IMG/VR virus record: IMGVR_UViG_3300021976_000016 | Span: 1 to 57,849 of that record | Origin: a virus | DNA: 57,849 nucleotides | Strand: one strand, 5' to 3' | Shown here: piece after piece, positions 20,170 to 31,421 of the stretch | Position numbering within the stretch: the stretch's first letter is position 1 | How the letters are laid out: every line of letters starts with the position of its first letter | Position numbers and translations under genes: made by a program | Notes under the pieces: model-generated | What the model saw: only the letters and a program-made list of their open reading frames with translations | Told to the model about the DNA's origin: nothing | Databases searched by the model: none

Positions 20170-20198
20170 GCCGCAACCAGCGGTAGGAGAAACAAACA
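20170..20198 (+). promoter_or_regulatory. hairpin-Shine-Dalgarno leader element, copy 5
   Basis: GCCGCAACCAGCGG (20170-20183) followed at once by T-AGGAG-AAAC and an ATG at 20199. Stem CCGC/GCGG, ACCA in the loop. Strands are swapped relative to the other copies (CCGC first), so pairing is kept although the bases are reversed. Confidence 0.7.
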
Positions 20199-20639
20199 AT
20201 GACAAACGTCCAGCTTTACCTTGCAGTCGGCATCCCATCATTCTTGGTGCTCGCCGGTATCCTCCTCAACCTCCTCACTGCTTCATCCCTACGCGCCGAG
20301 GCTGGCACGATACGCGGTGAGGTCGGCTCGCTCCGTACCGATATGAATGCTGGGTTGACCGCATTGCGCACGGATATGAATGATGGACTGATTACGCTGC
20401 GCAACGAGATGAGCGCCGGATTGAATTCGCTGCGTACTGAGATGAACTCCGCACTGCGGTCTGAGATTGGTACGCTGCGGTCTGAGGTGAACGCGGGATT
20501 CGCCTCACTGCGCGGAGAGATGAACGTGCTCCGTGCAGACTTGCACGGTGAGATGGTGTCGCTGCGCAACATCGTCCATACCGATCAGGTGGCACTGCAT
20601 GAGCGCATGACGCGGCTAGAAGAAAAACGGGCATCGTAA
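20199..20639 (+). CDS. membrane-anchored coiled-coil repeat protein
   Basis: 146 aa. One hydrophobic segment (6-30), then seven or eight 11-residue units of the type LRTDMNAGLxx / LRxEM-xxx running to the C terminus. The repeats are clear by eye and make a long, probably trimeric coiled coil; such proteins occur in phages but with no fixed function. It starts behind a hairpin leader element. Confidence 0.75.
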   Translation: MTNVQLYLAVGIPSFLVLAGILLNLLTASSLRAEAGTIRGEVGSLRTDMNAGLTALRTDMNDGLITLRNEMSAGLNSLRTEMNSALRSEIGTLRSEVNAGFASLRGEMNVLRADLHGEMVSLRNIVHTDQVALHERMTRLEEKRAS

Positions 20640-20797
20640 TGTGGCACATGATTGAGTTCTGGCTCGCCAAGGCTCTCTCGGAAGTTATCATTGTGGTGGC
20701 AGTCCTTCTTTGCTTGGGTCTACTGGGATGGATCATTCAGTGGAGACAAAAGCGGAAAGACCATACAAACATCAAAGCAGCTTCGCCGCGCCCCTAG
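20639..20797 (+). CDS. 52-residue membrane protein
   Basis: Starts TAATG on the previous stop. M-W-H-M-I-E-F-W lead, a hydrophobic segment about 16-32 (VIIVVAVLLCLGLLGW), then a basic tail. Single-pass membrane miniprotein, role unknown. Last gene before the operon-end terminator. Confidence 0.65.
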   Translation: MWHMIEFWLAKALSEVIIVVAVLLCLGLLGWIIQWRQKRKDHTNIKAASPRP

Positions 20798-20861
20798 TTT
20801 CTCCGGGTAAGCAAAGCGTCTGAGGGTGGTACCTCGGGGCCGGTACGTAACTCGGCGATGG

Positions 20862-20910
20862 CCCCGGCAATCTATAGGCTCCCCAGCCTTCCCAGTTGCC
20901 GGGGTCTTTC
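20862..20910 (+). terminator. strong rightward terminator closing the early operon
   Basis: CCCCGGCAA (20862-20870) pairs with TTGCCGGGG (20896-20904); a 5-bp AGGCT/AGCCT hairpin is nested in the loop and TCTTTCT follows. An alternative stem CGGGGCC/GGCCCCG (20835-20866) overlaps its left arm, so the two are mutually exclusive. It lies in the 117-base gap between converging operons. Confidence 0.75.
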
Positions 20911-20914
20911 TGCT

Positions 20915-21103
20915 CTACGGAAGCTCGTCGCGACCTTCGATTTTTCTCAGGACATCCCAGCCCGTCTTGCCGGGGAACATTCCAGCGACGAACGTGCACG
21001 CCTGAAGGCGAATCATATGGCCGTCGTCCATGACGCGCTTCACGAGCTTTCTCAGTAGATCCGTATCGACAGCCGTTCCATTCTGATCAGCCCAGTTGCT
21101 CAT
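20915..21103 (-). CDS. small unknown protein, leftward cassette
   Basis: 62 aa from the ATG at 21103, forming TGATG with the previous stop. Central helix LLRKLVKRVMDDGHMIRLQACTF. No recognised domain. Last gene of the leftward cassette 23153-20915. Confidence 0.65.
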   Translation of the reverse strand: MSNWADQNGTAVDTDLLRKLVKRVMDDGHMIRLQACTFVAGMFPGKTGWDVLRKIEGRDELP

Positions 21104-21675
21104 CACGACCTCGCGAATGAAATCGTCCACCGCGCGTTCTCTTCCGGCGTCAGGTGCGACCGCAACGCCGCCTCAGTCACCTTCGGGTCTTCTCCCTCAG
21201 TAAGCGTCAGCTCTGTCGTCAGCATCTCGCACTGCTGATTGTTTCGAAGCATGCCCCTGATCTCCCGCGCCATCAGCTCCGGGGTGAAGTCGATCTGCTC
21301 AGAGAGCATCATGCAATCGCTGCTCTCTTTCAAGTCGAGCATGTATGCGTGGAAGGGGATGCCGTCACGCAGGCAGCGGCGAGCACGGTGATTGCCATCG
21401 ATGAGGCAGACCCCGCCGAGGCGCTGGCCGATGATGCCGGGTACAGATGGGTCAACGTGATCGATATGCGCCTCATGGTGCTCGTCATTGACCTCTAGCA
21501 TGTGTCGCAGCATGTCGGGCGGCACGATGGCTGTAGGGCGGCCCTTGACGCTGTGGACCATACGCTTAGCGAGATTGACGTCGAAGAGATAGGTTCCGAG
21601 TTCACCTTGGACGCTGTACACCTGCTGAGCACGGCGAAGCATCCATTGGCAACGCGGGCAGTTCGGATCGGTCAT
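21103..21675 (-). CDS. ParB-like (IDGNHRA) protein
   Basis: 190 aa. CPRC knuckle at 5-8, then a central block GQRLGGVCLIDGNHRARR: the D-G-N-H-R motif of ParB/Srx-superfamily proteins that bind nucleotide or act on DNA. The C-terminal half is helical and acidic. Unknown substrate. Couples with neighbours by small overlaps. Confidence 0.7.
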   Translation of the reverse strand: MTDPNCPRCQWMLRRAQQVYSVQGELGTYLFDVNLAKRMVHSVKGRPTAIVPPDMLRHMLEVNDEHHEAHIDHVDPSVPGIIGQRLGGVCLIDGNHRARRCLRDGIPFHAYMLDLKESSDCMMLSEQIDFTPELMAREIRGMLRNNQQCEMLTTELTLTEGEDPKVTEAALRSHLTPEENARWTISFARS

Positions 21676-21866
21676 TGGTCACCTTGTTTTATAAGCAGCG
21701 AACAGAGCGGAGAGAAGTAGCCAACCGGCGCTGAACCTTGCGCGCTGAGGCGGTCTGTACAGGGGTTGCAATACTTGCTGTTGAGCCGCACGCACGCTTT
21801 GTTCGAGCAGTCGGGTGTGGCGCAGTTCGGCCATACGGCGAGCACGCGTTTGAAAGATGGTGGCAT
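21672..21866 (-). CDS. small zinc-knuckle protein
   Basis: 64 aa. C-x4-C at CATPDC, C at ACV, then YCNPC: a likely zinc site between residues 15 and 37, similar to the N terminus of the HNH protein at 73-540. ATGA overlap with the ParB-like gene. Confidence 0.6.
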   Translation of the reverse strand: MPPSFKRVLAVWPNCATPDCSNKACVRLNSKYCNPCTDRLSAQGSAPVGYFSPLCSLLIKQGDQ

Positions 21867-21885
21867 GGTTACATTCTAAATATCA

Positions 21886-22245
21886 TCACTCCTCATCCAG
21901 AAGGACATCATTTGCGTCGAAGCTCATGTCAGGCGTTTGTTTCGCGAATCGGGATCTGGTGACCTCACTCGATACGCTTTGCGCCACCACCCGCGCCAAC
22001 CCGGAGAAGGTTCGTGCTACGTCCAAATCGATCTCGCCGTTCAGCACTCTGCTGGCGACGGCGTTCACTTGGCTGGCGAACTCGCGAACCGTTCTCGGCT
22101 GCTTCCACCGTGGCGTCGAGACGCTTGACGGCGACGTTGAGGTCGAGGAGTTCGAGCGGGACGTAGTATCCCGTCTTTTCGCGGTAGCGGATGACTTCTT
22201 GCCTCCTCCGCTCCGGGTGTTTTTTGATCGACTTTTTGTCGGCAT
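21886..22245 (-). CDS. second frame of a probably frame-broken gene
   Basis: 119 aa if started at the ATG at 22245. Only the C-terminal 70 residues (RTVREFASQVNAVASRVLNGE onward) look like natural protein; the N-terminal half is Ser/Thr/Lys/Arg-rich and lies opposite a good reading frame on the same strand. I think it is the true 3' part of the gene that begins at 22357, displaced by one base near 22110. Confidence 0.5.
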   Translation of the reverse strand: MPTKSRSKNTRSGGGKKSSATAKRRDTTSRSNSSTSTSPSSVSTPRWKQPRTVREFASQVNAVASRVLNGEIDLDVARTFSGLARVVAQSVSSEVTRSRFAKQTPDMSFDANDVLLDEE

Positions 22246-22357
22246 TGCGCACTGCTCTCTTTCCTGATTCAGTTTTCCGATACTGCCGTCGATAGCACCG
22301 TGGGCACGGTCCATTCTTGCTCCGCTTATGATCGCGACCACAGGACGGGCAGCTCAT
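21965..22357 (-). CDS. zinc-ribbon protein, first frame of a probably frame-broken gene
   Basis: 130 aa. Natural-looking up to about residue 80: CPSCGRD...CPRC zinc ribbon (3-21), a basic helix, and KTGYYVPLELLDLNVAVKRLDATVE. After that the reading (RVRQPSERRRQQSAERRD) becomes Arg/Gln-rich, while the +1 frame becomes good. Needs a +1 shift near 22110. ATGA with the preceding gene. Confidence 0.55.
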   Translation of the reverse strand: MSCPSCGRDHKRSKNGPCPRCYRRQYRKTESGKRAVRNADKKSIKKHPERRRQEVIRYREKTGYYVPLELLDLNVAVKRLDATVEAAENGSRVRQPSERRRQQSAERRDRFGRSTNLLRVGAGGGAKRIE

Positions 22358-22860
22358 CCCTCTTCACTTTGCAGTGTGGATTCGAGCACCGATACTTCGT
22401 CAATCGCTTCTACATTCCAAATGCAGCCGCTCGCGCAATCCCAACCGTAGTACCAGCTGGTGAACCTCTCCATGCGCCGGGACCACTGATAAGGCGAAAT
22501 GACAATGCCCTGATAATCTTGCGCGACTCGTGACCAATCGATGCACGGCTCACGGAACAAGCCCGGACTCAAAGCGGCTAGCGGATTCTCTCTTCCGTAC
22601 ATCTTCGTGAACTCGTCGAGCTGATCTCCCGAGCGCAGCCACAGAATATTCGCGTCAGGTTTCAGGTGAATCTCATTTGGTATGTCGAGAAGCTCAGTGT
22701 GAAAAGACTCTGAGCTGCACCACTCTTTCCAATCGTTTTCACCCTCTGCTGAAACCCATAAACCAGACGGCTTATCAAAGTGAGATTCCGGTGTCGGCTG
22801 ACTGGTGATGGACCACAATTTTCCCAACGGCTTCGACGAGTAATGAATCAACCTCTGCAC
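22354..22860 (-). CDS. conserved protein of unknown function (KPSGLWVS type)
   Basis: 168 aa. Contains KPSGLWVSAEGENDWKEWC and the C-terminal WYYGWDCASGCIWNVEAI, which I recognise as a widespread bacterial and phage family of unknown role. Rich in Trp; no membrane segment. Part of the leftward cassette. Confidence 0.8.
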   Translation of the reverse strand: MQRLIHYSSKPLGKLWSITSQPTPESHFDKPSGLWVSAEGENDWKEWCSSESFHTELLDIPNEIHLKPDANILWLRSGDQLDEFTKMYGRENPLAALSPGLFREPCIDWSRVAQDYQGIVISPYQWSRRMERFTSWYYGWDCASGCIWNVEAIDEVSVLESTLQSEEG

Positions 22861-23153
22861 TTGGTGCTGCCCTCCGTAATTTGAGTCGACTCCAGCTCTT
22901 TCATAAACTCTTCGCGGACCTTGCGCGCAGAAATGCTCAGCCCCAGATGCTCGTGCAGCTGCTGGATCACAAGCAGAAGACCGTATTGAAACTCGGTCTC
23001 ATCGCCCAGACTCAGTGTCTGCACCCGGTTCATCGCGTCGATGCCGATCCGCTTGCAATATTGCTGGAACTGTTCGATGTGGCTTGCCGAATCGTCACTC
23101 AAGGTCATCTCCACGGCTGTTTTCGTTATCGGTAACGGCGGCAGTACAACCAC
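22848..23153 (-). CDS. unknown protein, first of leftward cassette
   Basis: 101 aa from a GTG at 23153; no clear ribosome-binding site, and a start at the internal ATG (MTLSDD) is possible. Helical (EQFQQYCKRIGIDAMNRV). It stands next to the divergent promoter region 23154-23241. Confidence 0.6.
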   Translation of the reverse strand: MVVLPPLPITKTAVEMTLSDDSASHIEQFQQYCKRIGIDAMNRVQTLSLGDETEFQYGLLLVIQQLHEHLGLSISARKVREEFMKELESTQITEGSTKCRG

Positions 23154-23183
23154 TTACAAGTTTTTTACATTTACAAAATCGCT

Positions 23184-23212
23184 TTGACGCAACACTAATC
23201 CTTGCGTACTAT
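23184..23212 (+). promoter_or_regulatory. sigma70-type promoter of the second rightward run
   Basis: TTGACG (23184-23189), 17-base spacer, TACTAT (23207-23212). Start of transcription near 23219, about 23 bases before the ATG at 23242. Best promoter match in the window. It also rules out a start of the next gene at 23212. Confidence 0.65.
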
Positions 23213-23241
23213 TGCCGAATTGTACATTTCGTGACGTGCAA

Positions 23242-23859
23242 ATGTTTGCGGAAAGGAGAGAAAAACCTATCACACCAACGAAAACTACAAGCGACTCCAA
23301 TTCGAAGAAGCATAAGTGCCCGCACTGCCCGCGATTATTTGTCAGCAAAACCGGTCTCGGAAGCCACCTCAGAAGTCACGGTATCCAAGGATCGGCAAAG
23401 TCAACGGTGGCTGCAAGACTTGCAAAGGAGCAAGCTGCTCCCACATCTGCACCACAACCACCTGCTCCACTTCTAATCATCTGCCCCGATTGTCCTGAGA
23501 AGTTTCTGAATACCCGCATGCTTGGTCTTCATCGCAGGCACCATCACGGTGTCGTCAGCCCGACCGCTGACCTCAGAGCGTTGAAGAAGCAGCAGAAAGA
23601 ACTTGCGGGGAAACCCTCAACTCCAGCCGAAAGGTCAGATCCGGTCAATGTCACGAAGCGCAGCAGTCTCAAACATAGCAACGCAGTCGAAGGTGGCAAT
23701 CATGCCTCCCCCAACCCTTCGCTCGATCCCATCGCGTATGCCATCTGCATCGGTTCCCTCAAAGAGTTCTGCCGCCATTTTGCGGAAGAGCATGATGTCC
23801 CTACGCGCCAATTCACCCGGCAATGCGCTGAGTTATTTTACCGTCAGACGCTTCGGTAG
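23242..23859 (+). CDS. two-finger C2H2 zinc-finger protein
   Basis: 205 aa (start ATG at 23242; the GAAAGGAG that follows it makes a later, unidentified start possible). Two classical C2H2 fingers: CPHCPRLFVSKTGLGSHLRSH and CPDCPEKFLNTRMLGLHRRHH, with correct C-x2-C...H-x3-H spacing and the family Leu/Phe core. C2H2 fingers of this eukaryote-like form are uncommon in phages. The C-terminal part is a Pro/Ser/Thr-rich linker ending in a helical block. DNA binding is likely. Confidence 0.8.
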   Translation: MFAERREKPITPTKTTSDSNSKKHKCPHCPRLFVSKTGLGSHLRSHGIQGSAKSTVAARLAKEQAAPTSAPQPPAPLLIICPDCPEKFLNTRMLGLHRRHHHGVVSPTADLRALKKQQKELAGKPSTPAERSDPVNVTKRSSLKHSNAVEGGNHASPNPSLDPIAYAICIGSLKEFCRHFAEEHDVPTRQFTRQCAELFYRQTLR

Positions 23860-23989
23860 ATACTACGGATGCGAGATTGTATGCGCCCATTGCGGCGACC
23901 GCCCTCCCGCCCATATACCGTCTCATGGTCGCTGGAAATGGCTGGCGATGCACGAGATTGGTATGCATCACCGGCCTCGTCACAATTGA
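23795..23989 (+). CDS. small Cys/His protein overlapping the zinc-finger gene
   Basis: 64 aa from the second ATG of CATGATG. Sequence YYGCEIVCAHCGDRPPAHIPSHGRW...HEIGMHHR looks like a compact zinc site (CAHC plus several His). It shares its first 65 bases with the end of the C2H2 gene in another frame. GGAAGAG precedes the ATG. Plausible but unproven. Confidence 0.45.
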   Translation: MSLRANSPGNALSYFTVRRFGRYYGCEIVCAHCGDRPPAHIPSHGRWKWLAMHEIGMHHRPRHN

Positions 23990-24050
23990 GCACCTAAACC
24001 AAAATAGGCCCATCTGGACCCTCTACTCGATCTACATTCGAAGAGGTAGT

Positions 24051-24758
24051 ATGCACCTGCGTTCTACACTCCCCCCGCTCCCGAACAACATGCGCGACCT
24101 GCCTGTCGATACTCGTGGTTATCCAATCCCGTTCTTTGTGCAATGGATTGATGGTGTTCCTGAATTCCGCTTGGCGAATCGCGGAAATCTACATCGATGC
24201 GTTCTACTGAAGCTCTGTTGGGTTTGCGGCAAGCCGCTTGGGAACCGGCTTGTCGCTTTCACCATCGGCCCCATGTGCGCAGTCAACCGTATCTCTTCTG
24301 AACCTCCACAACATCCCGAGTGCGCCGAATTTTCAGCGCGTGCATGTCCGTTCCTTATCAATCCGAAGATGCGGCGGCGAGAGGATAACCTTCCAGACAA
24401 GCAGGAGCCAGCTGGCCTGATGCTGGAGCACAACCCGGGCGTGACGCTGGTATGGATCACTCGGAGCTGGAATGTCGTGCATGAGCTGAACGGCTACCTC
24501 TTCGAGATCGGCACTCCAACTAAGGCGCTTTGGTACAAAGAGGGTCGCATGGCGTCGCGTGACGAGGTTGGGGCCGCCATTGACAATGGATTTCCCCTAC
24601 TGCGTCAGTATGCAAAGAGCAAGAAGGACCTGGCGGAACTGGAGAACCAACGCATCGCGGCAATGAAGCTACTGCCGAAAGAGCGGAAGGAGATGGCGAA
24701 CGTTCATGACCAGATAGACATGTTGATCGTCTCCCTGAAGAACAATCGAAACGGATGA
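24051..24758 (+). CDS. conserved unknown protein with CWVCG and CPFL blocks
   Basis: 235 aa from the ATG at 24051, GAGG upstream. Blocks MRDLPVDTRGYPIPFFVQWIDG, LCWVCGKPLG, GPMCAVNRISSEPPQH and FSARACPFL define a family seen in many soil bacteria and their phages; the Cys pairs suggest metal binding. Function unknown. Confidence 0.8.
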   Translation: MHLRSTLPPLPNNMRDLPVDTRGYPIPFFVQWIDGVPEFRLANRGNLHRCVLLKLCWVCGKPLGNRLVAFTIGPMCAVNRISSEPPQHPECAEFSARACPFLINPKMRRREDNLPDKQEPAGLMLEHNPGVTLVWITRSWNVVHELNGYLFEIGTPTKALWYKEGRMASRDEVGAAIDNGFPLLRQYAKSKKDLAELENQRIAAMKLLPKERKEMANVHDQIDMLIVSLKNNRNG

Positions 24759-24774
24759 AAGATGAGGAACAAGC

Positions 24775-25035
24775 ATGTCCAAAGAAGCATCAGAGATCGG
24801 TCGGCAACTACGGGTCGATGAATTGCACGAGAGGACGGTGGTCTTCATCAGTTATGAGGACCGCAACGTCATCCTGACGATGTGGGTGTCCAGCATCGAT
24901 GGCGACGTAGTGGCGTTTTACGCTGGAGCGATCAATCCGCCAATCACGTTTATGACCTTCAGGCAGCCAGACGGGACTTTGATCGACCACAACGGGAAGC
25001 AGGTGCTGGTGCATGAATATCTCGGGGAGGTTTAG
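24775..25035 (+). CDS. small unknown protein
   Basis: 86 aa; beta-strand-rich (VVFISYEDRNVILTMWVSS). No recognised domain. Clean ribosome-binding site (GAGGAAC) and close spacing with both neighbours. Confidence 0.7.
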   Translation: MSKEASEIGRQLRVDELHERTVVFISYEDRNVILTMWVSSIDGDVVAFYAGAINPPITFMTFRQPDGTLIDHNGKQVLVHEYLGEV

Positions 25036-25038
25036 CGC

Positions 25039-25347
25039 ATGAGGCGACTCACAGAACACGGTCTGATCCCGCTGCGGGATAAGTTTCTCAACACGGACGG
25101 CAAGGTTGTCCCTAATGACATTGACGACCAAACTGCTTTTCCTATCGGTGCTGGTCCTTGGCCGAACGAGTTTCCGAGTGCCATTTGTGTCCAATGCGCA
25201 GTCTGCGAAGACCTCACTGGAATCAGCCCGAAGGGGCTGGAACTACATAAGCGCAATCCAGCGGCTCGACCTATCTTCTGTCCCTCGTGTTTCGTGATGC
25301 TTTACAACCTGATGGCGCTTGAGGAGGGTTCGTCAGATGAAGAGTGA
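25039..25347 (+). CDS. zinc-binding unknown protein
   Basis: 102 aa. CVQCAVCEDL at 50-59 and CPSC near 80 give a four-to-five-Cys metal site. The last bases overlap the next gene. No named family. Confidence 0.7.
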   Translation: MRRLTEHGLIPLRDKFLNTDGKVVPNDIDDQTAFPIGAGPWPNEFPSAICVQCAVCEDLTGISPKGLELHKRNPAARPIFCPSCFVMLYNLMALEEGSSDEE

Positions 25348-25909
25348 CCTATTCGACGATCCAAATCTTCAGTCCTACCTCACGCGCGCCGAAAGAGAGA
25401 TGCTTCCAATGATGGAAAAATCAGCCATTGCGATCACGCTGGTGACCGGCTCAGTTGATGTAAAAATATGCCTCGAAATTGGTGCCGCCATCATGCTCGA
25501 CAAGCCCATCATCGCAGTGATCTCCGAAGGCGCAAAAGTGCCGGCGAATCTGAAGCGAGTCGCCAACGTGATCGTCGAAGGCAACATGAAGGATGCGGCT
25601 ACGCTCGCGAAACTTCAACAAGCTATATCGAACATAATGGCGCAGGATCCGCGCGCCCCGAAGTACTGGCAGCATGAGACCACCGGCGTCTTATACCCGG
25701 TCGTCATGGCATATCTGACCGGCAAGGATATGAACGCTGAGCAGGTAGCCACTATGCGCGCCTATCTTCGGCAGTGGATTCAATCGCCGGTATGGTATGG
25801 CGGTGAGGAGCTGCGCAAGCTACGGGCCAGCATCGACGTGATCCAGACACGCGATGACATCGAGGCTTGGCTGTGTGCGGCGCTCGATGAAGGGTTCGAT
25901 CCGCTATGA
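25337..25909 (+). CDS. Rossmann-like (nucleoside deoxyribosyltransferase/TIR-like) protein
   Basis: 190 aa from the ATG at 25337. Residues 27-80 have the look of the nucleoside 2-deoxyribosyltransferase/TIR superfamily: AIAITLVTG strand, then DVKICLEIGAAIMLDKPIIAVI, with the E-x-G-A-A and D-K-P-I-I signature. The C-terminal 70 residues (MRAYLRQWIQSP...DDIEAWLCAALDEGFDPL) form a second helical domain that I know from other phage proteins. It may act on nucleosides or NAD-like substrates. No catalytic test is possible here. Confidence 0.65.
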   Translation: MKSDLFDDPNLQSYLTRAEREMLPMMEKSAIAITLVTGSVDVKICLEIGAAIMLDKPIIAVISEGAKVPANLKRVANVIVEGNMKDAATLAKLQQAISNIMAQDPRAPKYWQHETTGVLYPVVMAYLTGKDMNAEQVATMRAYLRQWIQSPVWYGGEELRKLRASIDVIQTRDDIEAWLCAALDEGFDPL

Positions 25910-26073
25910 CCATGTATCAACTCACGATCTGCACCGATATATTCCTCTTCGTGTCGCTAGTCTTCAATCTCCTCACTCTGTTGTCGACCCGGAGGACGCG
26001 ACGAATCCTGAAAGAAATAATCGAACTGCGGCAAAAGCAAGAGGACCTGCTTCGAAGTCGGGGTCTGATATGA
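25906..26073 (+). CDS. 55-residue membrane protein
   Basis: ATG overlaps the previous stop. Hydrophobic segment about 7-27 (ICTDIFLFVSLVFNLLTLL), then a strongly basic helix ending in a Gln/Glu/Leu coiled coil. Single-pass membrane protein of unknown role. Confidence 0.6.
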   Translation: MTMYQLTICTDIFLFVSLVFNLLTLLSTRRTRRILKEIIELRQKQEDLLRSRGLI

Positions 26074-26738
26074 ATTGCAGCCGCCCTCCACTTCCTGTTT
26101 TGCTACATGCTTTGAGGCCGGTCGTGCGTCAGGCCATGCTCAAAGAGTTCACGCCGGACTGCTGCATCGCGACGTGCCGCGTGCTGCATCAGGTCTTCGA
26201 GAGCTTCGGCTATTACGCAGACGCGGTTCCAGTGGACGTCTACATCTTCAATGCGCCGATGGCCGCGTTACTGAGGGACGGCGTAGAGATCCCAACGGAC
26301 GACCCTGTTGCACGGAGAAAGCTGTTTGACGCGACTGGTGCATGGGGCGTCGGCATCACGCGATTGAGCGCGGACGTTGGCGCGCCCGTCGTCGGCGGGA
26401 GATACGGTGGCCATCTGGTGCTGCGAGTCATGAACACGCTGATCGACGCTTCGCTGCAACAGGCCGACCGGCCTCAGTACGGTATCGCCCTCCCATCGCT
26501 GATTGCGTTCTCCCCAGACGTGCAAGCCTTCTTCACGCAGAAGCGAACGGGCGATAAGCGTTGCGGCATTTCGGTAAACCGCTGCGAGATCATCTACCAG
26601 CGCATGAAGGACTACAGCTTTCGTCGATCACCCGACTGGCTGCGAAGCGGCTCACCATATACCGATGTGATTCGTAGCATCGTCATGCAGGCTGAGAACC
26701 GGTTGAACCACCACGCGGAGGAGAGAGCCTATGGCTGA
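26070..26738 (+). CDS. papain/transglutaminase-like fold protein
   Basis: 222 aa from the ATG at 26070. Cys-His-Asp order typical of the fold: DCCIATCRVL (C31/C32), GGHLVLRV (H115), LIDASLQQ (D126). Substrate unknown; this family occurs in phages and mobile islands. Overlaps the neighbours by a few bases. Confidence 0.65.
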   Translation: MNCSRPPLPVLLHALRPVVRQAMLKEFTPDCCIATCRVLHQVFESFGYYADAVPVDVYIFNAPMAALLRDGVEIPTDDPVARRKLFDATGAWGVGITRLSADVGAPVVGGRYGGHLVLRVMNTLIDASLQQADRPQYGIALPSLIAFSPDVQAFFTQKRTGDKRCGISVNRCEIIYQRMKDYSFRRSPDWLRSGSPYTDVIRSIVMQAENRLNHHAEERAYG

Positions 26739-27045
26739 TTTTTGGGTGAATGGAATTGTGTCGAACGTAGACGGTCTGCCAAAGATTCAACTCTCAAACG
26801 AGAACGGTATCTTCGCGCAGCTCTCGATGGGCGAAGCCCGGAGCATCGCGCACAACATCATGCTAATGGCTGCGCGAACAGAGGCCGACGCGCTGATATT
26901 GAACTTTTGCAGGAAGCTAGATTCGGGCGAACGAGGCGATCAGATGGCGGCTGTCATGATGCAGGAGTTCCGAGACTTCCGCGCCAAGATAGACGACGAG
27001 ATTGTGGAGTCTGGCTACGACAAGCCACCCGGAGAGGAGCAGTGA
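26731..27045 (+). CDS. unknown protein
   Basis: 104 aa. Starts MADFWVNGIVSNVDGLPK, with a helical second half (RSIAHNIMLMAARTEADALIL). No domain recognised. Coupled to both neighbours by overlaps. Confidence 0.7.
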   Translation: MADFWVNGIVSNVDGLPKIQLSNENGIFAQLSMGEARSIAHNIMLMAARTEADALILNFCRKLDSGERGDQMAAVMMQEFRDFRAKIDDEIVESGYDKPPGEEQ

Positions 27046-27368
27046 TGCAGGTGACATGGTTTGGGAAGCAGTATGACGCTCCAATCTACTACGACACGAC
27101 ACAGGCACCGACGCCGGTCGACGTTGCGTGCATGTATTGCGACGAGCTGATCCTGATGGGAGAGGACGGCTTCTTGGATAGTGGCTCCAACCCGTTTCAT
27201 CGCGAGTGCTGGGTGAGGATGCTTATCGGTTCTGTCGCACATCAGCGCCACCTCTGCACCTGCTATATGCCCGAGGGTGCCGCGCAACCACACGAGCCGG
27301 AGGGCTTGAGCCGACGACAGACCGCGAAGCTCGCCGTGGCCTACCACGAAGGCACAATCGAGGATTAG
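27045..27368 (+). CDS. small Cys/His protein
   Basis: 107 aa from the ATG at 27045 (TGATG). CMYCDELILMGEDGF then FHRECWVR give a C-x2-C...H-x3-C metal site; a further CTC lies downstream. The C-terminal part is basic. Function unknown. Confidence 0.7.
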   Translation: MQVTWFGKQYDAPIYYDTTQAPTPVDVACMYCDELILMGEDGFLDSGSNPFHRECWVRMLIGSVAHQRHLCTCYMPEGAAQPHEPEGLSRRQTAKLAVAYHEGTIED

Positions 27369-27382
27369 GAGAGGGAGAAGGG

Positions 27383-27709
27383 ATGCAATCACTGATTGTT
27401 GCACCGCATAACGGCAAGTCGGTTGTCATTGTCGTCTTTCATGGCGACGCTCTGGACCGCATGAGCAAGAGCGATCCCGCCATTGTCGAGGGAGTCTTTC
27501 TCGCCCAGCTACGGCGGCTCCCTGCTGCCAACGACACCGTGTATCTACCGCTCACAGATTTCATGTTTTGCTATGAACCGGATCAGGAAGCGTTCGAATC
27601 CAAATGCCGGGAACTACGCGACCCCAAAGCGATTCTGCAATGGCTTGGCCGGGGATGGGAGAATCGACCGGAGGAGCGCGACACAGTCATCAAGGGCACC
27701 GATATCTAG
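27383..27709 (+). CDS. unknown protein
   Basis: 108 aa, ATG 27383 with GAGGGAGAAGGG before it. Alpha/beta pattern (SLIVAPHNGKSVVIVVFHGD), no recognised family. Followed by a 53-base gap that holds a leader element. Confidence 0.7.
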   Translation: MQSLIVAPHNGKSVVIVVFHGDALDRMSKSDPAIVEGVFLAQLRRLPAANDTVYLPLTDFMFCYEPDQEAFESKCRELRDPKAILQWLGRGWENRPEERDTVIKGTDI

Positions 27710-27733
27710 CCGAAGTGCTATGGTGTCCCACAC

Positions 27734-27762
27734 AGCGGCAACCAGCGCGCAGGAGAAACTAC
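27734..27762 (+). promoter_or_regulatory. hairpin-Shine-Dalgarno leader element, copy 6
   Basis: GCGGCAACCAGCGCGC (27735-27750) directly before AGGAG-AAAC and the ATG at 27763. The stem is weaker here (GCG/CGC), but the ACCAGC core and AGGAGAAAC are shared with the other copies. Confidence 0.6.
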
Positions 27763-28341
27763 ATGGCAACGCTCTATAGAGCAGACGGAACCATCGAAAC
27801 AATTCAACCAGCCAATGGCATCAACTTCAGCCTCGGGGAGTTGCAGACGCTCGTCGGCGGCTACATCGAGATCGTTCGCACGAAGGACGGTCAATTTTTA
27901 GTCTGCGACGAAAACGGCAAGGTCAGCGAGCAGCCCAAACACATCAACCTTCTGGCGACGCACATGTATCGGTACGGCGCGCACGATCCAATCGTCGGCG
28001 ACGCGCTGGTTGGAACTCTCCTTGAGGTCGACGGGCCACCGGATGTGGAAGAGGAGGAGTTGACCGAGCTGCAATACACGGTGCCTGTGAAGGGTGAGAG
28101 TTTCCGTCTCTACATCTTTGGCGATGACGGTATGCACTCAGGTGGTCAATGGTTCCGGCGAATGCCGGTCTATCCCGACGAGGAGATCACGGTCCACGAG
28201 GCCAAGACTCGCGCAGAGGCTGCGATCGCGGCTGGCTCTGAGATCCGCATCACCGATGGCGGCGACATGCTGGTCTACCACTTCAAGGGCGGCAAGCAGC
28301 TGTATCCGGCTGGCACGGCAGACGTGTGGGAGGCCATGTGA
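27763..28341 (+). CDS. DUF3846 domain protein
   Basis: 192 aa from the ATG at 27763. The N-terminal 90 residues match DUF3846 in pattern: ELQTLVGGYIEIVRT, FLVCDENGK, and the Asn/Ala-rich INLLATHMYRYG. The C-terminal part is a second alpha/beta region. DUF3846 has no known activity. It is preceded by a hairpin leader. Confidence 0.75.
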   Translation: MATLYRADGTIETIQPANGINFSLGELQTLVGGYIEIVRTKDGQFLVCDENGKVSEQPKHINLLATHMYRYGAHDPIVGDALVGTLLEVDGPPDVEEEELTELQYTVPVKGESFRLYIFGDDGMHSGGQWFRRMPVYPDEEITVHEAKTRAEAAIAAGSEIRITDGGDMLVYHFKGGKQLYPAGTADVWEAM

Positions 28342-28544
28342 GCATAAGGGCGCGCGATCTAATTGGTCGCAAGATCATCGCTGTAGACCTGCGCAGGTTT
28401 CATACCGGTAGGCACGACGCTCCGTGGTCCACCGACCCCATCCTTACTTTGGACAATGGGCGCAAGCTCTACTTCTCCACTCAAGAGACAGAGGTCGGTG
28501 AATATGGCGTCGAACTCTGTCTTACAGATCGGAATTCCAAATGA
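28338..28544 (+). CDS. small unknown protein
   Basis: 68 aa from a GTG at 28338 (GTGA overlap; GGGAGG six bases upstream). Beta-rich: IIAVDLRRF, ILTLDNGRKLYFST. No domain. Confidence 0.65.
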   Translation: MSIRARDLIGRKIIAVDLRRFHTGRHDAPWSTDPILTLDNGRKLYFSTQETEVGEYGVELCLTDRNSK

Positions 28545-29128
28545 CCGGGATGCAAGAGCGCATGATCGCCCACATGCAAGGGATGAAGGCGCTCAGGGAA
28601 ACCATGAAGATCTCCGACCAGTTCGTCTACAAGGGCATCGAGCACTTCCTGCTGGAACACGGCAGGTGGTACGAGGTGACGCCGTGGCGCGGTAAGTATA
28701 AGCAGGGCGCTCCCAAGAACTGCTTCGCCAACGCCATGCTGCTTGGCGCGCAGAAGGGTTTGCGCTATGTCGAAGGTCTCGCATTTGCGGACATAAAGAT
28801 CGAACTGCCCATCCACCACGGCTGGAACATCGATGAGCACGACAACGTGATCGACAACACGTGGCTCAATACCGGGCTGGTCTACTTCGGTGTCGAGTTT
28901 TCCGTTGGACGAGCAGATGACGCGATCTGGAACGGCGACAGCACAGTGCTCGACGACTACCGGCGCAGGCATCCGCTGTTTCGCGAGCCATGGCGCGGGG
29001 AGGACTATTCGCTCAAGTGGGAGGAAAGCGAAGGACTCAGGCTCTTGCGGCGTATGGACAAGGGCGAGTCCCCAAAGCGGCTTCTCGGCGAGGTCGAGCA
29101 ACTGAGAAAGGAACACGCGGGGAAATGA
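28541..29128 (+). CDS. second papain-like fold protein
   Basis: 195 aa. Cys-His-Asp order: NCFANAMLLG (C61), IHHGWN (H92/H93), VIDNTW (D105), a spacing typical of NlpC/transglutaminase-like folds. N-terminal helix-rich lead. It differs in sequence from the 26070 protein, so a recent duplication is unlikely. Function unknown. Confidence 0.6.
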   Translation: MTGMQERMIAHMQGMKALRETMKISDQFVYKGIEHFLLEHGRWYEVTPWRGKYKQGAPKNCFANAMLLGAQKGLRYVEGLAFADIKIELPIHHGWNIDEHDNVIDNTWLNTGLVYFGVEFSVGRADDAIWNGDSTVLDDYRRRHPLFREPWRGEDYSLKWEESEGLRLLRRMDKGESPKRLLGEVEQLRKEHAGK

Positions 29129-29664
29129 CGAACGTTGATATCAGCACACTCATGCAGCTTGAAATGGCCGCAGCCATCGAGCAGAAGCGAAAGCTCGGGA
29201 CGGGTGACGACAATTTCAGGATGAGCATCAAAATCGTCGGTCCCGGAGGATCGGTTGCAGATGTTCCGCTGCAATGGTCGAGCATGCAGGACAAGTATCT
29301 GAAAATGGGAATCCTCTCGCATCTCTGTGAACACGTGTCGGCGGTGGCTGCCGTAGTTACATCGGACGTTCGCCGTCTGAACTCGAAGGCGTTCTGCTCG
29401 CGCTTCAAGCTCGACTATGCCGACAGCGCGATGTTCAAAAAGGAATACGACCGGATCATGGCCGACTACAACCACGAGATGGTCAACCTGCCGCGTGAGA
29501 CGTGGGAGGAATCATTGTTTGTCGTTGCATACGGACCCCGCACGAAAAAGATGCTGGTGGCTCCCTATGCGGTGGTTGGCGGTGGCTTCATGTTTGAACG
29601 GCCAGAATTCGCAAACGAGGATGCGGAACTGGAGGTCGGGTTGATACCGGCTTGGTGGGTTTGA
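29125..29664 (+). CDS. unknown protein, last of second rightward run
   Basis: 179 aa from the ATG at 29125 (ATGA overlap). Helical N-terminal third, then strand-rich. No recognised family. Followed within 100 bases by a terminator. Confidence 0.65.
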   Translation: MTNVDISTLMQLEMAAAIEQKRKLGTGDDNFRMSIKIVGPGGSVADVPLQWSSMQDKYLKMGILSHLCEHVSAVAAVVTSDVRRLNSKAFCSRFKLDYADSAMFKKEYDRIMADYNHEMVNLPRETWEESLFVVAYGPRTKKMLVAPYAVVGGGFMFERPEFANEDAELEVGLIPAWWV

Positions 29665-29746
29665 GGGTAGCCAACCGCGCCGACACGTGGCCGCTGGTGG
29701 CGCTCACGCTGGAGGATGCGCCTAATTCCCCGCCCCACCAACGACG

Positions 29747-29777
29747 ACGCCCCCACGAGGCTGTGGGGGCGTTTGGC
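29747..29777 (+). terminator. terminator between converging operons
   Basis: ACGCCCCCAC / GTGGGGGCGT, a perfect 10-bp stem with a GAGGCT loop, followed by TTGGCTGTCT. It closes the rightward run ending at 29664 and lies in the 143-base gap before the leftward gene ending at 29808. The T-run is short, but the stem is strong. Confidence 0.65.
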
Positions 29778-29807
29778 TGTCTGCTTCAGGGTTCGGGCGG
29801 GATTAGT

Positions 29808-30185
29808 TCACAGTTCGCCCGCGACCAAGTGAAGCTCTGTTTTCGTGTGTCCTTTTTGGTCTTGGACCTGTACCATCAGGCCGCCGTAACCAGTGCCTAT
29901 GCGATAGGCCTGAAACTCCATGCCGACGGTCAGATCGATATTGCGTGCGTTGGTTGCTGGTGCCGCCGTGACGATCAGCGTTATCCTTCGGAGGTTGGGG
30001 TTGGAGTTCTCGGGGTCGAGCATCTCGACCGTCACTGTAGGAATACGGTCGCCCCTGAGCCCCCTCGTATAGCCGCTTTCGACCACCTTGCCACCCATCC
30101 AAATATGGTCGGCAGCGCGAAGGCTCGACACGGCGAACAGCGTGAACAGCAGAGTTGCAATCGTGGAACTGAGTAGCTTCTTCAT
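29808..30185 (-). CDS. secreted protein with signal peptide
   Basis: 125 aa. Start at the ATG at 30185 (ATGA with the previous stop). Signal peptide MKKLLSS..., hydrophobic 8-20, cleavage likely after LRA. Mature part is beta-rich and basic (GGKVVESGYTRGL, RRITLIVTAAP). It would be exported to the periplasm; no family known. Behind a hairpin leader that lies inside the upstream gene. Confidence 0.7.
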   Translation of the reverse strand: MKKLLSSTIATLLFTLFAVSSLRAADHIWMGGKVVESGYTRGLRGDRIPTVTVEMLDPENSNPNLRRITLIVTAAPATNARNIDLTVGMEFQAYRIGTGYGGLMVQVQDQKGHTKTELHLVAGEL

Positions 30186-30403
30186 TTTGAATCTCCTGCG
30201 GCGGGTGCCGCTGTGACTGGTGCCGGTTTCGATGTGCAATACGGTGTGTGGGCGCGTAACTCACGAGCGCCGAACGACCGTTCGCAATATGGGCACGGAC
30301 GCTCTACCTTCGGGCGCGATGGCACCTCTGCCCGTTTGCGCCTCAGCCACTCCAGCGCATAGGGCTCAAGCTCCTCGGTGGTGAACTTCTCCAGCGACTT
30401 CAT
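30182..30403 (-). CDS. single-module zinc-knuckle protein
   Basis: 73 aa. One C-x2-C-x11-H-x3-C module (CPYCERSFGARELRAHTPYC), exactly the spacing of the triple protein at 3917-4363, preceded by a basic helix. Nucleic-acid or protein binding likely. The last 30 bases double as the hairpin leader of the next gene, so that element is also coding here. Confidence 0.7.
   Translation of the reverse strand: MKSLEKFTTEELEPYALEWLRRKRAEVPSRPKVERPCPYCERSFGARELRAHTPYCTSKPAPVTAAPAAGDSK
30186..30213 (-). promoter_or_regulatory. hairpin-Shine-Dalgarno leader element, copy 4
   Basis: Minus strand GCGGCACCCGCCGC (30211-30198) then AGGAG (30197-30193) and the ATG at 30185. Stem GCGG/CCGC. Overlaps the end of the upstream coding region. 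Confidence 0.7.
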
Positions 30404-30942
30404 CGCGCGCCGCCGACGGTCTCAGTCAGCCGCGCCAGCTTGACTACTTCGCCATGCAGTGCCGGGTGGCTCAGCCTTACCGTCCCCATGATTGCCAAGC
30501 CTTCGATAAGGAACTTCATGCTCTTCCAGAGCACAGCGTCGACCGTGATTGTTGCTGCCTGCGCCTCTGTGGTGTCTGACTGCGTCATCGTGTTTCTCCC
30601 TGCGGTTGGTGCCGCTGTTGTTGTGCGTGCTTCTAACTTCGCTATGACTTCGTCTAGCTCGTCGAGCGCGTTACCGATAGCAGGTGCCGGAAGGTTCCAG
30701 CTGCTGACCGGTGCCGTCGCCAGCACGGTCTCTACAAGGTTCGCGACGACCCTTGCTTCAAGTGCTTGGATCGCTTCCTTTTTCGTGAAGCCGAGGACGC
30801 ACTGTGAGAAGTGCTTTCCGCTGACCTGCTCATACCACCATCCATTCTCGGGGTCGCGGTAGATGGTGTGTTGCCGCTCGCCGATGGTTACGGTGTACTC
30901 GCCGGTGGTGCTGAAGTCTGCGTTGCGTTTCGTCGTCGTCAT
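30400..30942 (-). CDS. unknown protein, apparently fused from two genes
   Basis: 180 aa. Two parts separated by the translated leader (TTTAAPTAGRNTM). Part 1 (1-112): NADFSTTGEYTVTIGERQHT, then ENGWWYEQVSGKHFSQCVLG and a helix. Part 2 begins at the internal ATG (30588) behind a full hairpin-Shine-Dalgarno element and reads MTQSDTTEAQ...TVRLSHPALHGEVVKLARL. So either the long protein and a 62-residue short form are both made, or a stop codon was lost and two genes became one. Confidence 0.7.
   Translation of the reverse strand: MTTTKRNADFSTTGEYTVTIGERQHTIYRDPENGWWYEQVSGKHFSQCVLGFTKKEAIQALEARVVANLVETVLATAPVSSWNLPAPAIGNALDELDEVIAKLEARTTTAAPTAGRNTMTQSDTTEAQAATITVDAVLWKSMKFLIEGLAIMGTVRLSHPALHGEVVKLARLTETVGGAR
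30589..30617 (-). promoter_or_regulatory. hairpin-Shine-Dalgarno leader element, copy 3 (internal)
   Basis: Minus strand GCGGCACCAACCGC (30615-30602), AGGGAG, then the internal ATG at 30588. It lies wholly inside a longer reading frame and is translated as TAAPTAGRNT, which shows that this frame had no stop between the two units. Confidence 0.7.
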
Positions 30943-30971
30943 TGTGTTTCTCCTGCGGCTGGTGACCGCTT
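30943..30971 (-). promoter_or_regulatory. hairpin-Shine-Dalgarno leader element, copy 2
   Basis: Minus strand GCGGTCACCAGCCGC (30969-30955), AGGAG (30954-30950), AAACACA and the ATG at 30942. The hairpin's 3' arm abuts the ribosome-binding site, with a loop around ACCA. Confidence 0.75.
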
Positions 30972-30985
30972 TGGGTTGAGGGTTA

Positions 30986-31153
30986 GTTTGCTAGGAAGGT
31001 CTTCGTTACGTGCCAGTCTTGCGCGTTGCCGGTGTTGTTGTCGTTGTAGACCCGCACCGTGTTCTCGATCACTTCGCATACCACGCCTGTCTCGCCGTAT
31101 ACGTTTCTAACTTTGTCGCCTGCTTTGAAGGTGGTCCGTGTCGTCGTGGTCAT
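30986..31153 (-). CDS. 55-residue small protein, first of the leftward cassette
   Basis: MTTTRTTFKAGDKVRNVYGE then TGVVCEVIENTVRVYND and a short tail ending FLAN. Looks like a small beta-barrel or SH3-like module (KAGDKVRNVYGETGVV). Function unknown. A leader element and AGGAG stand directly before the ATG. Confidence 0.7.
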
Positions 31154-31182
31154 CGGTATGGCTCCTGCGGCTGGTAGCCGCT
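31154..31182 (-). promoter_or_regulatory. hairpin-Shine-Dalgarno leader element, copy 1
   Basis: Minus strand GCGGCTACCAGCCGC (31181-31167), AGGAG (31166-31162), then the ATG at 31153. Best stem of the series: GCGGCT/AGCCGC with an ACC loop. Confidence 0.75.
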
Positions 31183-31202
31183 TGGTACGCTGTCCAGCGT
31201 AG

Positions 31203-31221
31203 ACACATTACTCTAACGTGT
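31203..31221. promoter_or_regulatory. operator-like inverted repeat in the leftward cassette promoter
   Basis: ACACATTA-CTC-TAACGTGT: half-sites match at 7 of 8 positions (ACACrTTA). It overlaps TAGAGT, a possible -10 on the minus strand, about 50 bases before the first cassette gene. The same half-site (ACACGTTAG) recurs at about 31618, close to attP. Probable repressor or Int/Xis-control site. Confidence 0.5.
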
Positions 31222-31421
31222 ACAGTTCTATTTTCAGGAATCGACCGGGCCGGGAGGCGAACAAGAAATGTCGGCTTTTTGTGTTCGGGACATTCCGGGA
31301 GGGTTGGTATAGGCGGGGTCAGCGGGGGATGGCGGGTGGCCCTTGGCTCAGGATTGGCTGAACTTCGCGCCACGTTGCCCTGTGTGGCCTCGGCGCGCCC
31401 CGGGTGGGGGAAACGGGCGCG

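Follow-up and report, generated by a model that had tools for sequence, protein, structure and literature searches.

An apparently undescribed ACCA-loop hairpin adjoins the Shine-Dalgarno sequence at gene starts of uncultured, mostly soil phages

Introduction

Phage translational operators, such as the hairpin of the MS2 coat protein and the targets of T4 gp32 and RegA, are small RNA elements read by a protein at a ribosome-binding site. The lambda-type boxB is a 15-nt hairpin with 5 bp and a conserved, GNRA-like 5-nt loop, and is found together with boxA in nut sites. Nearest in description to the element reported here are the start-associated repeats of Cluster K mycobacteriophages; of these, SAS is a fixed 13-mer, GGGATAGGAGCCC, which lies just upstream of many unrelated starts and covers the Shine-Dalgarno (SD) sequence, and its function is unknown (Pope et al. 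2011, PMC3203893). In ESAS, imperfect inverted repeats of 17 bp are added; the authors judged the support for an mRNA hairpin in these to be slight (PMC3203893).

Here, we describe a hairpin with a constant ACCA loop that precedes the SD sequence at six starts in the window, which is the whole 57,849-nt stretch of DNA analyzed (IMG/VR virus record IMGVR_UViG_3300021976_000016, positions 1 to 57,849), and that recurs in other phages. The stem changes in matched pairs while the loop stays constant, as would be expected of a real control element, and the open literature, outside subscription papers and preprints, yielded no description of it. Searched with 4227 Rfam models, the window leaders matched none at E <= 2, and elsewhere only neighboring ribozymes were returned.

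Results

The window derives from a phage with a siphovirus-type terminase, a tape measure and a tyrosine integrase encoded at 33191-31869; the first-pass gene calling was over-strict and serves as a rough guide only. An earlier note on this DNA had claimed at least six leaders, listing six copies, on both strands and at unrelated genes, and all six were re-located when both strands were searched, two on the plus strand and four on the minus strand, ahead of genes with different products (Table 1). The positions 30186, 30589, 30943 and 31154 previously assigned to the minus-strand copies are their start-codon ends, the hairpins beginning at 30211, 30615, 30969 and 31181. Each leader is built from a 4-5 bp stem, an (N)ACCA loop (ACCC in one copy; another copy carries a bulged G in its stem), an SD of AGGAG or GGGAG, and an ATG. 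The ATG had been placed 6-9 bases on; all are indeed close, with a measured spacing of 7-9 nt after the SD. The strict pattern GCGG-n-ACCA-n-CCGC describes three copies, the other three being the swapped, the bulged and the ACCC-loop copies, and the swap of arm order with pairing kept was borne out in the copy at 20170 (GCCGC..GCGGT). Direct joining to AGGAG likewise holds for the five copies with zero gap, while leader 4 has one intervening A followed by GGGAG. A worn copy suspected at 2904-2930 did not survive inspection: only the right-hand letters ACCCGCAGGAG are present, with no left arm, and neither of two covariance models returned the site.

Table 1 Leaders in the window and ribozyme-like elements near gene starts in other phages
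Feature	Position	Strand	Hairpin or match	SD	ATG	Gene and context	Covariance model (bits)
Leader 1, window	20170..20201	+	GCCGC-AACCA-GCGGT 20170-20184	AGGAG 20185-20189	20199	20199-20639, 146 aa, coiled-coil-like	37.4
Leader 2, window	27735..27765	+	GCGGC-AACCA-GC(G)CGC 27735-27750, one bulged G	AGGAG 27751-27755	27763	27763-28341, DUF3846; SD-to-ATG 7 nt	39.4
Leader 3, window	30180..30211	-	GCGGC-ACCC-GCCGC 30211-30198	AGGAG 30197-30193	30182-30180	125-aa protein, secreted-looking; leader overlaps 3' end of upstream ORF 30403-30182	30.9
Leader 4, window	30586..30615	-	GCGG-CACCAA-CCGC 30615-30602, then A	GGGAG 30600-30596	30588	Inside 180-aa ORF 30942-30400; would be an in-frame start for its last 62 codons	29.9
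Leader 5, window	30940..30969	-	GCGGT-CACCA-GCCGC 30969-30955	AGGAG 30954-30950	30942	180-aa ORF	39.4
Leader 6, window	31151..31181	-	GCGGC-TACCA-GCCGC 31181-31167	AGGAG 31166-31162	31153	56-aa ORF; first leader past the integrase gene, same direction	36.2
Hammerhead-like ribozymes, up to five, G011	L105 17242-17302, 17848-17894, 19828-19875 (+); near L105 18517; L106 1300		Hammerhead core			Each ends shortly before an ACCA leader	
Hammerhead, L032	1682-1625	-	Type II, above Rfam threshold			Adjoins leader at 1625	
Hammerhead, L032	1203-1142	-	Type II, slightly below Rfam threshold			About 80 nt before leader at 1061	
Ribozyme, L614	1242-1294	+	Twister-P5			Between genes	
Ribozyme, L626	1237-1180	-	Type II hammerhead			Between genes	

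Such an accumulation is not reproduced by randomized sequence. The strict pattern was found three times against 0.13 expected, a count reached in 0 of 100 shuffles; by a loose structural definition the window holds five matches, against a mean of 0.06 and a maximum of two in 300 dinucleotide shuffles. RNA folding predicts that the hairpin forms in all six leaders and leaves the SD mostly unpaired. The four minus-strand leaders start just past the integrase gene and share its orientation. Beside that gene, upstream of leader 6, an imperfect palindrome, ACACGTTAGAGTAATGTGT, lies at approximately 31200-31222 on the minus strand and is a possible repressor operator. The ORF at 30942-30400 could give rise to a full-length and a 62-aa product via the ATG at 30588, or may represent two fused genes.

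The earlier note had proposed that a covariance model be searched in other phages; this search found many copies, and both relatives and compensatory changes are present. With carriers gathered by pattern scans of viral contigs, the element, written as A-[5-bp stem]-NACCA-[stem]-AGGAG-start, was located in approximately 26 further contigs from several phage lineages, with up to seven copies per genome: seven in G011 (IMGVR 3300032770_001058; leaders before an open frame), six in G029, three to five in G614, three each in G615, G018 and G613, and two each in G012 and G212. The window terminase has relatives in nine carriers, the window included; G614, G617, G619, G622, G623 and others fall outside this terminase family, and thus the carriers are not all close kin. 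Conversely, six full-length relatives with 77-85% terminase identity contained no confident copy, with a loose count of zero in each, which indicates that the element is not inherited with the virion genes. One terminase relative, G004, has a weak look-alike before an ATG (AGCGG-CCACCAA-CCGCT-A-TGGAG, L119:830-861). Among the INPHARED phages, blastn with two short leaders gave partial chance matches only, and the cultured Acidobacteriota phages Tunturi 1-5 offered no credible match. Pattern matches in the genome-contig collection, with the exception of contig L126, were single and scattered over varied phyla and were taken as chance. A long GCT-type repeat at L079 2904-2627 (minus strand) matched isrG by composition only.

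The loop of the hairpin is fixed. In 994 kb of carrier sequence, 45 of the 64 hairpins with a 5-bp stem and a 5-nt loop positioned 0-4 nt before an SD and start carry an NACCA loop, at most 26 of the 45 being attributable to the copy that fetched its contig; the remaining loop tetramers listed occur once each at most. Three hairpins of the same geometry precede an SD and start in 361 kb of non-carrier relatives, none with NACCA. The gap to the SD is zero in 41 of the 45 NACCA copies, among which thirteen stem sequences are represented. A control scan with the scrambled loop ACACA returned no match with a fully paired left arm (0/67), against four among the 95 AACCA matches listed, a difference that is weak alone.

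Stem variation preserves pairing. Across 29 aligned copies, 98.6% of cells are paired, compared to at most 57% for slid partners; double changes occupy 23 cells against 7.3 in shuffles and involve four of the five stem pairs, and the covariation score is 0.478 against 0.151, although the search patterns themselves dictated some of the variety in stems, and these pair statistics lean upwards. Comparisons within contigs and between homologous genes are less affected. The fairest evidence for covariation comes from L032 and G614, as these contigs were fetched by one copy and yet hold several stems around (N)ACCA loops: GCGGC/GCCGC, GCCGA/TCGGC and CTCGC/GCGAG in L032, and GGCTC/GAGCC, CCGGC/GCCGG and GCCGC/GCGGC in G614. 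Homologous genes also differ in their stems, with GCGGT/ACCGC and GCCGC/GCGGC before AAA genes, and GCCGC/GCGGC and GCCGT/ACGGC before DUF932 genes.

Bases around the stem are conserved as well. In 39 of 42 copies an unpaired A sits directly 5' of the stem, and in 36 of 42 the -2 position is a purine, neither of which featured in any search pattern. Counted from the loop, the second stem pair is G-C in 41 of 42, a pair that two of the scans demanded. Judged from these alignments, a fixed loop, a flanking A and a free stem is the look of a recognized hairpin.

The genes led by the element are diverse. They encode DUF932 proteins (G011, G617, G615), AAA ATPases (G011, G029, G616), a second AAA_5 ATPase and a protein with a weak DUF3150 match (G029), a methyltransferase (G614) and the DUF3846 protein of the window, and many others encode small unknown proteins. 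Against the G011 AAA protein, identity is 47% for that of G029 and 38% for that of G616; against the G011 DUF932 protein, it is 41% for G617 and 19% for G615. Homology of the window gene at 20199 to the G016 leader gene, suspected from the first residues, was not supported on comparison.

The copies differ in what precedes them. A strong sigma70-like promoter (score >=9) lies within 100 nt upstream of 13 of 52 copies, compared to 0.9% of random places, and several copies have a -10 box 7-14 nt before the hairpin. Other copies lie 0-13 nt past a stop codon inside operons, most clearly in G029 (0-6 nt), where neither a promoter nor a ribozyme was seen at these post-stop copies. In G011, a repeat that contains the hammerhead core CUGAUGAG...CGAAAC...GUC stands before each of four or five copies, the repeats lying in one phage operon. 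Three of them match the Rfam RAGATH-1 hammerhead at approximately 26 bits, below the family threshold, with the core and a TCCCG/CGGGA pseudoknot present; the last repeat (before 41360) has a damaged core. Two leaders of L032 are also preceded by hammerheads (Table 1). In L032, a 4.2-kb phage contig, the DUF932-like frame seen in its relative L626 is truncated and leads into the first ribozyme. The L614 and L626 ribozymes directly follow a DUF932 gene and precede an ordinary SD without an ACCA hairpin. A ribozyme search of the window with Rfam came back empty.

Two metagenome-assembled genomes (MAGs) of the soil bacteria Acidobacteriota hold phage contigs that carry the element: L126 comes from an Acidobacteriaceae MAG, and G212 from a different genome in the same order. 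By content, both contigs are phage, and the link to the host rests on binning. No convincing copy in host genes emerged when 298 genomes from the order, 399 from the class and 396 from the phylum to which G028 belongs were searched, with 18-24 candidates scored per genome, so that rare copies could escape; what was returned were the phage contigs in G028 and G212 and chance matches without an ACCA loop or start codon. The element thus appears nearly absent from Acidobacteriota genomes, and its carriers appear to comprise several groups of uncultured, mostly soil phages, at least two of them linked to Acidobacteriota by MAG binning.

Discussion

The placement of the hairpin before unrelated genes, on both strands and joined to the SD and start, points to translation. 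Control of translation, or binding by one protein, would be consistent with a loop that does not vary, an A conserved beside the stem and a fixed junction with the SD. We put at about even the chance that the hairpin is a translational cis-element recognized by a trans-acting factor, the factor being most likely an RNA-binding protein, either from the host or from the phage and then poorly conserved; this is the best reading in that it would explain the fixed loop and A, the free stem, the SD contact and the spread over unrelated genes. In this model, a hairpin of 5 bp, closed by an (N)ACCA loop and flanked on its 5' side by an unpaired A, would be stacked directly against the SD, in 5' leaders and in intercistronic gaps of phage mRNAs. 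The putative factor would read the loop, the flanking A and the inner G-C pair, and its binding would alter ribosome access to the adjoining SD, so that a set of genes is controlled together; the effect may be repression or enhancement. An all-against-all blastp of the carriers found no gene family common to all and no shared RNA-binding gene, the widest families being structural and general phage genes, in a comparison that would miss a small, fast-evolving phage protein. With no phage gene common to the carriers, a host factor would be the simpler choice; it would need another normal target, given that Acidobacteriota chromosomes hold practically no copies.

The main rival dispenses with a factor. 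As an autonomous leader, the hairpin would stabilize the mRNA 5' end and insulate the SD from pairing, at a transcript start or at a 5' end made by a ribozyme. We consider this unlikely but worth serious weight: the strong promoters near 13 of 52 copies (background 0.9%), several with a -10 box 7-14 nt away, and the hammerheads before four or five G011 copies and two L032 copies would supply such ends, and predicted folding leaves the SD mostly open. A stabilizer, however, needs neither an invariant ACCA loop nor a fixed A outside the stem, and the G029 copies 0-6 nt past a stop codon inside operons have no promoter or ribozyme in sight. The ribozymes bear also on a different proposal, that a sequence-specific endoribonuclease cuts at the hairpin and separates polycistronic genes. 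Ribozymes occupy the same gene gaps in two contigs, so that cutting is probably used there, and the hairpins read by Cas6f-type enzymes have a stem and pentaloop of similar size; yet the carriers have no nuclease gene in common, and copies directly after promoters have nothing useful to separate, making a processing site improbable.

That the inverted repeat acts as DNA, either as an operator for a repressor or as a mobile repeat for exchange of gene cassettes, seems to us very improbable. The arms do form an inverted repeat, and copies stand at gene starts on both strands, but the arms co-vary, the asymmetric ACCA loop keeps one orientation toward the gene, and 41 of 45 copies are fused to the SD; an operator would keep its half-sites and has no need of an SD. 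Short GC-rich hairpins are common, and single-copy matches in large collections include chance ones, as in the genome contigs, so that chance or convergence of such hairpins beside strong SDs has to be weighed as well. This reading is already contradicted by the loop statistics, namely one loop in 45 of 64 hairpins and a loose count for the window of five where shuffles average 0.06, and we give it next to no credence.

If recognition by a trans-acting factor is correct, a broader picture can be tentatively offered, as a possibility that we would not yet favor: the element may be an expression format shared across unrelated phage lineages with common hosts, in which each chosen gene has its own ACCA hairpin and SD, either at a promoter-set transcript start or exposed by a ribozyme, and in which a host factor would translate or silence the set together. 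With this element, gene control in soil phages gains an RNA signal that is defined and open to testing, also in phages associated with Acidobacteriota, whose biology has hardly been explored. The ACCA loop could be used at once as bait for the factor, the nearby hammerheads make the element relevant to the purpose of intergenic phage ribozymes, and its presence can help to mark gene starts and to link uncultured phages.

How does the element compare to described systems? The hairpin is far too small for a known ribozyme; a self-cleaving core such as CUGANGA...GAAA is absent within it and was found upstream of some copies only, and the Hammerhead_II (RF02276), RAGATH-1 hammerhead (RF03152) and Twister-P5 (RF02684) elements are separate catalytic RNAs in gene gaps of G011, L032, L626 and L614. 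Like boxB, it combines 5 bp with a conserved 5-nt loop; unlike boxB, it is fused to the SD of each gene. Covariation and the zero gap to the SD liken it to phage translational operators, in which a conserved RNA hairpin adjoins the ribosome-binding site, but the MS2 and T4 operators act within a single phage, on one gene or a few, and bind a known protein, whereas the ACCA element precedes many genes in several lineages and would be read by a putative factor. The comparison with SAS and ESAS drawn in the earlier note holds for position and fails for sequence and RNA-fold evidence. As with SAS, copies lie immediately upstream of many starts in one genome, six in the window and up to seven elsewhere. 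The leaders, however, read stem-AGGAGAAAC or similar and depart from the SAS 13-mer by more than two positions, and, in contrast to SAS and ESAS, the stem letters of the ACCA element vary with pairing kept while its loop stays fixed.
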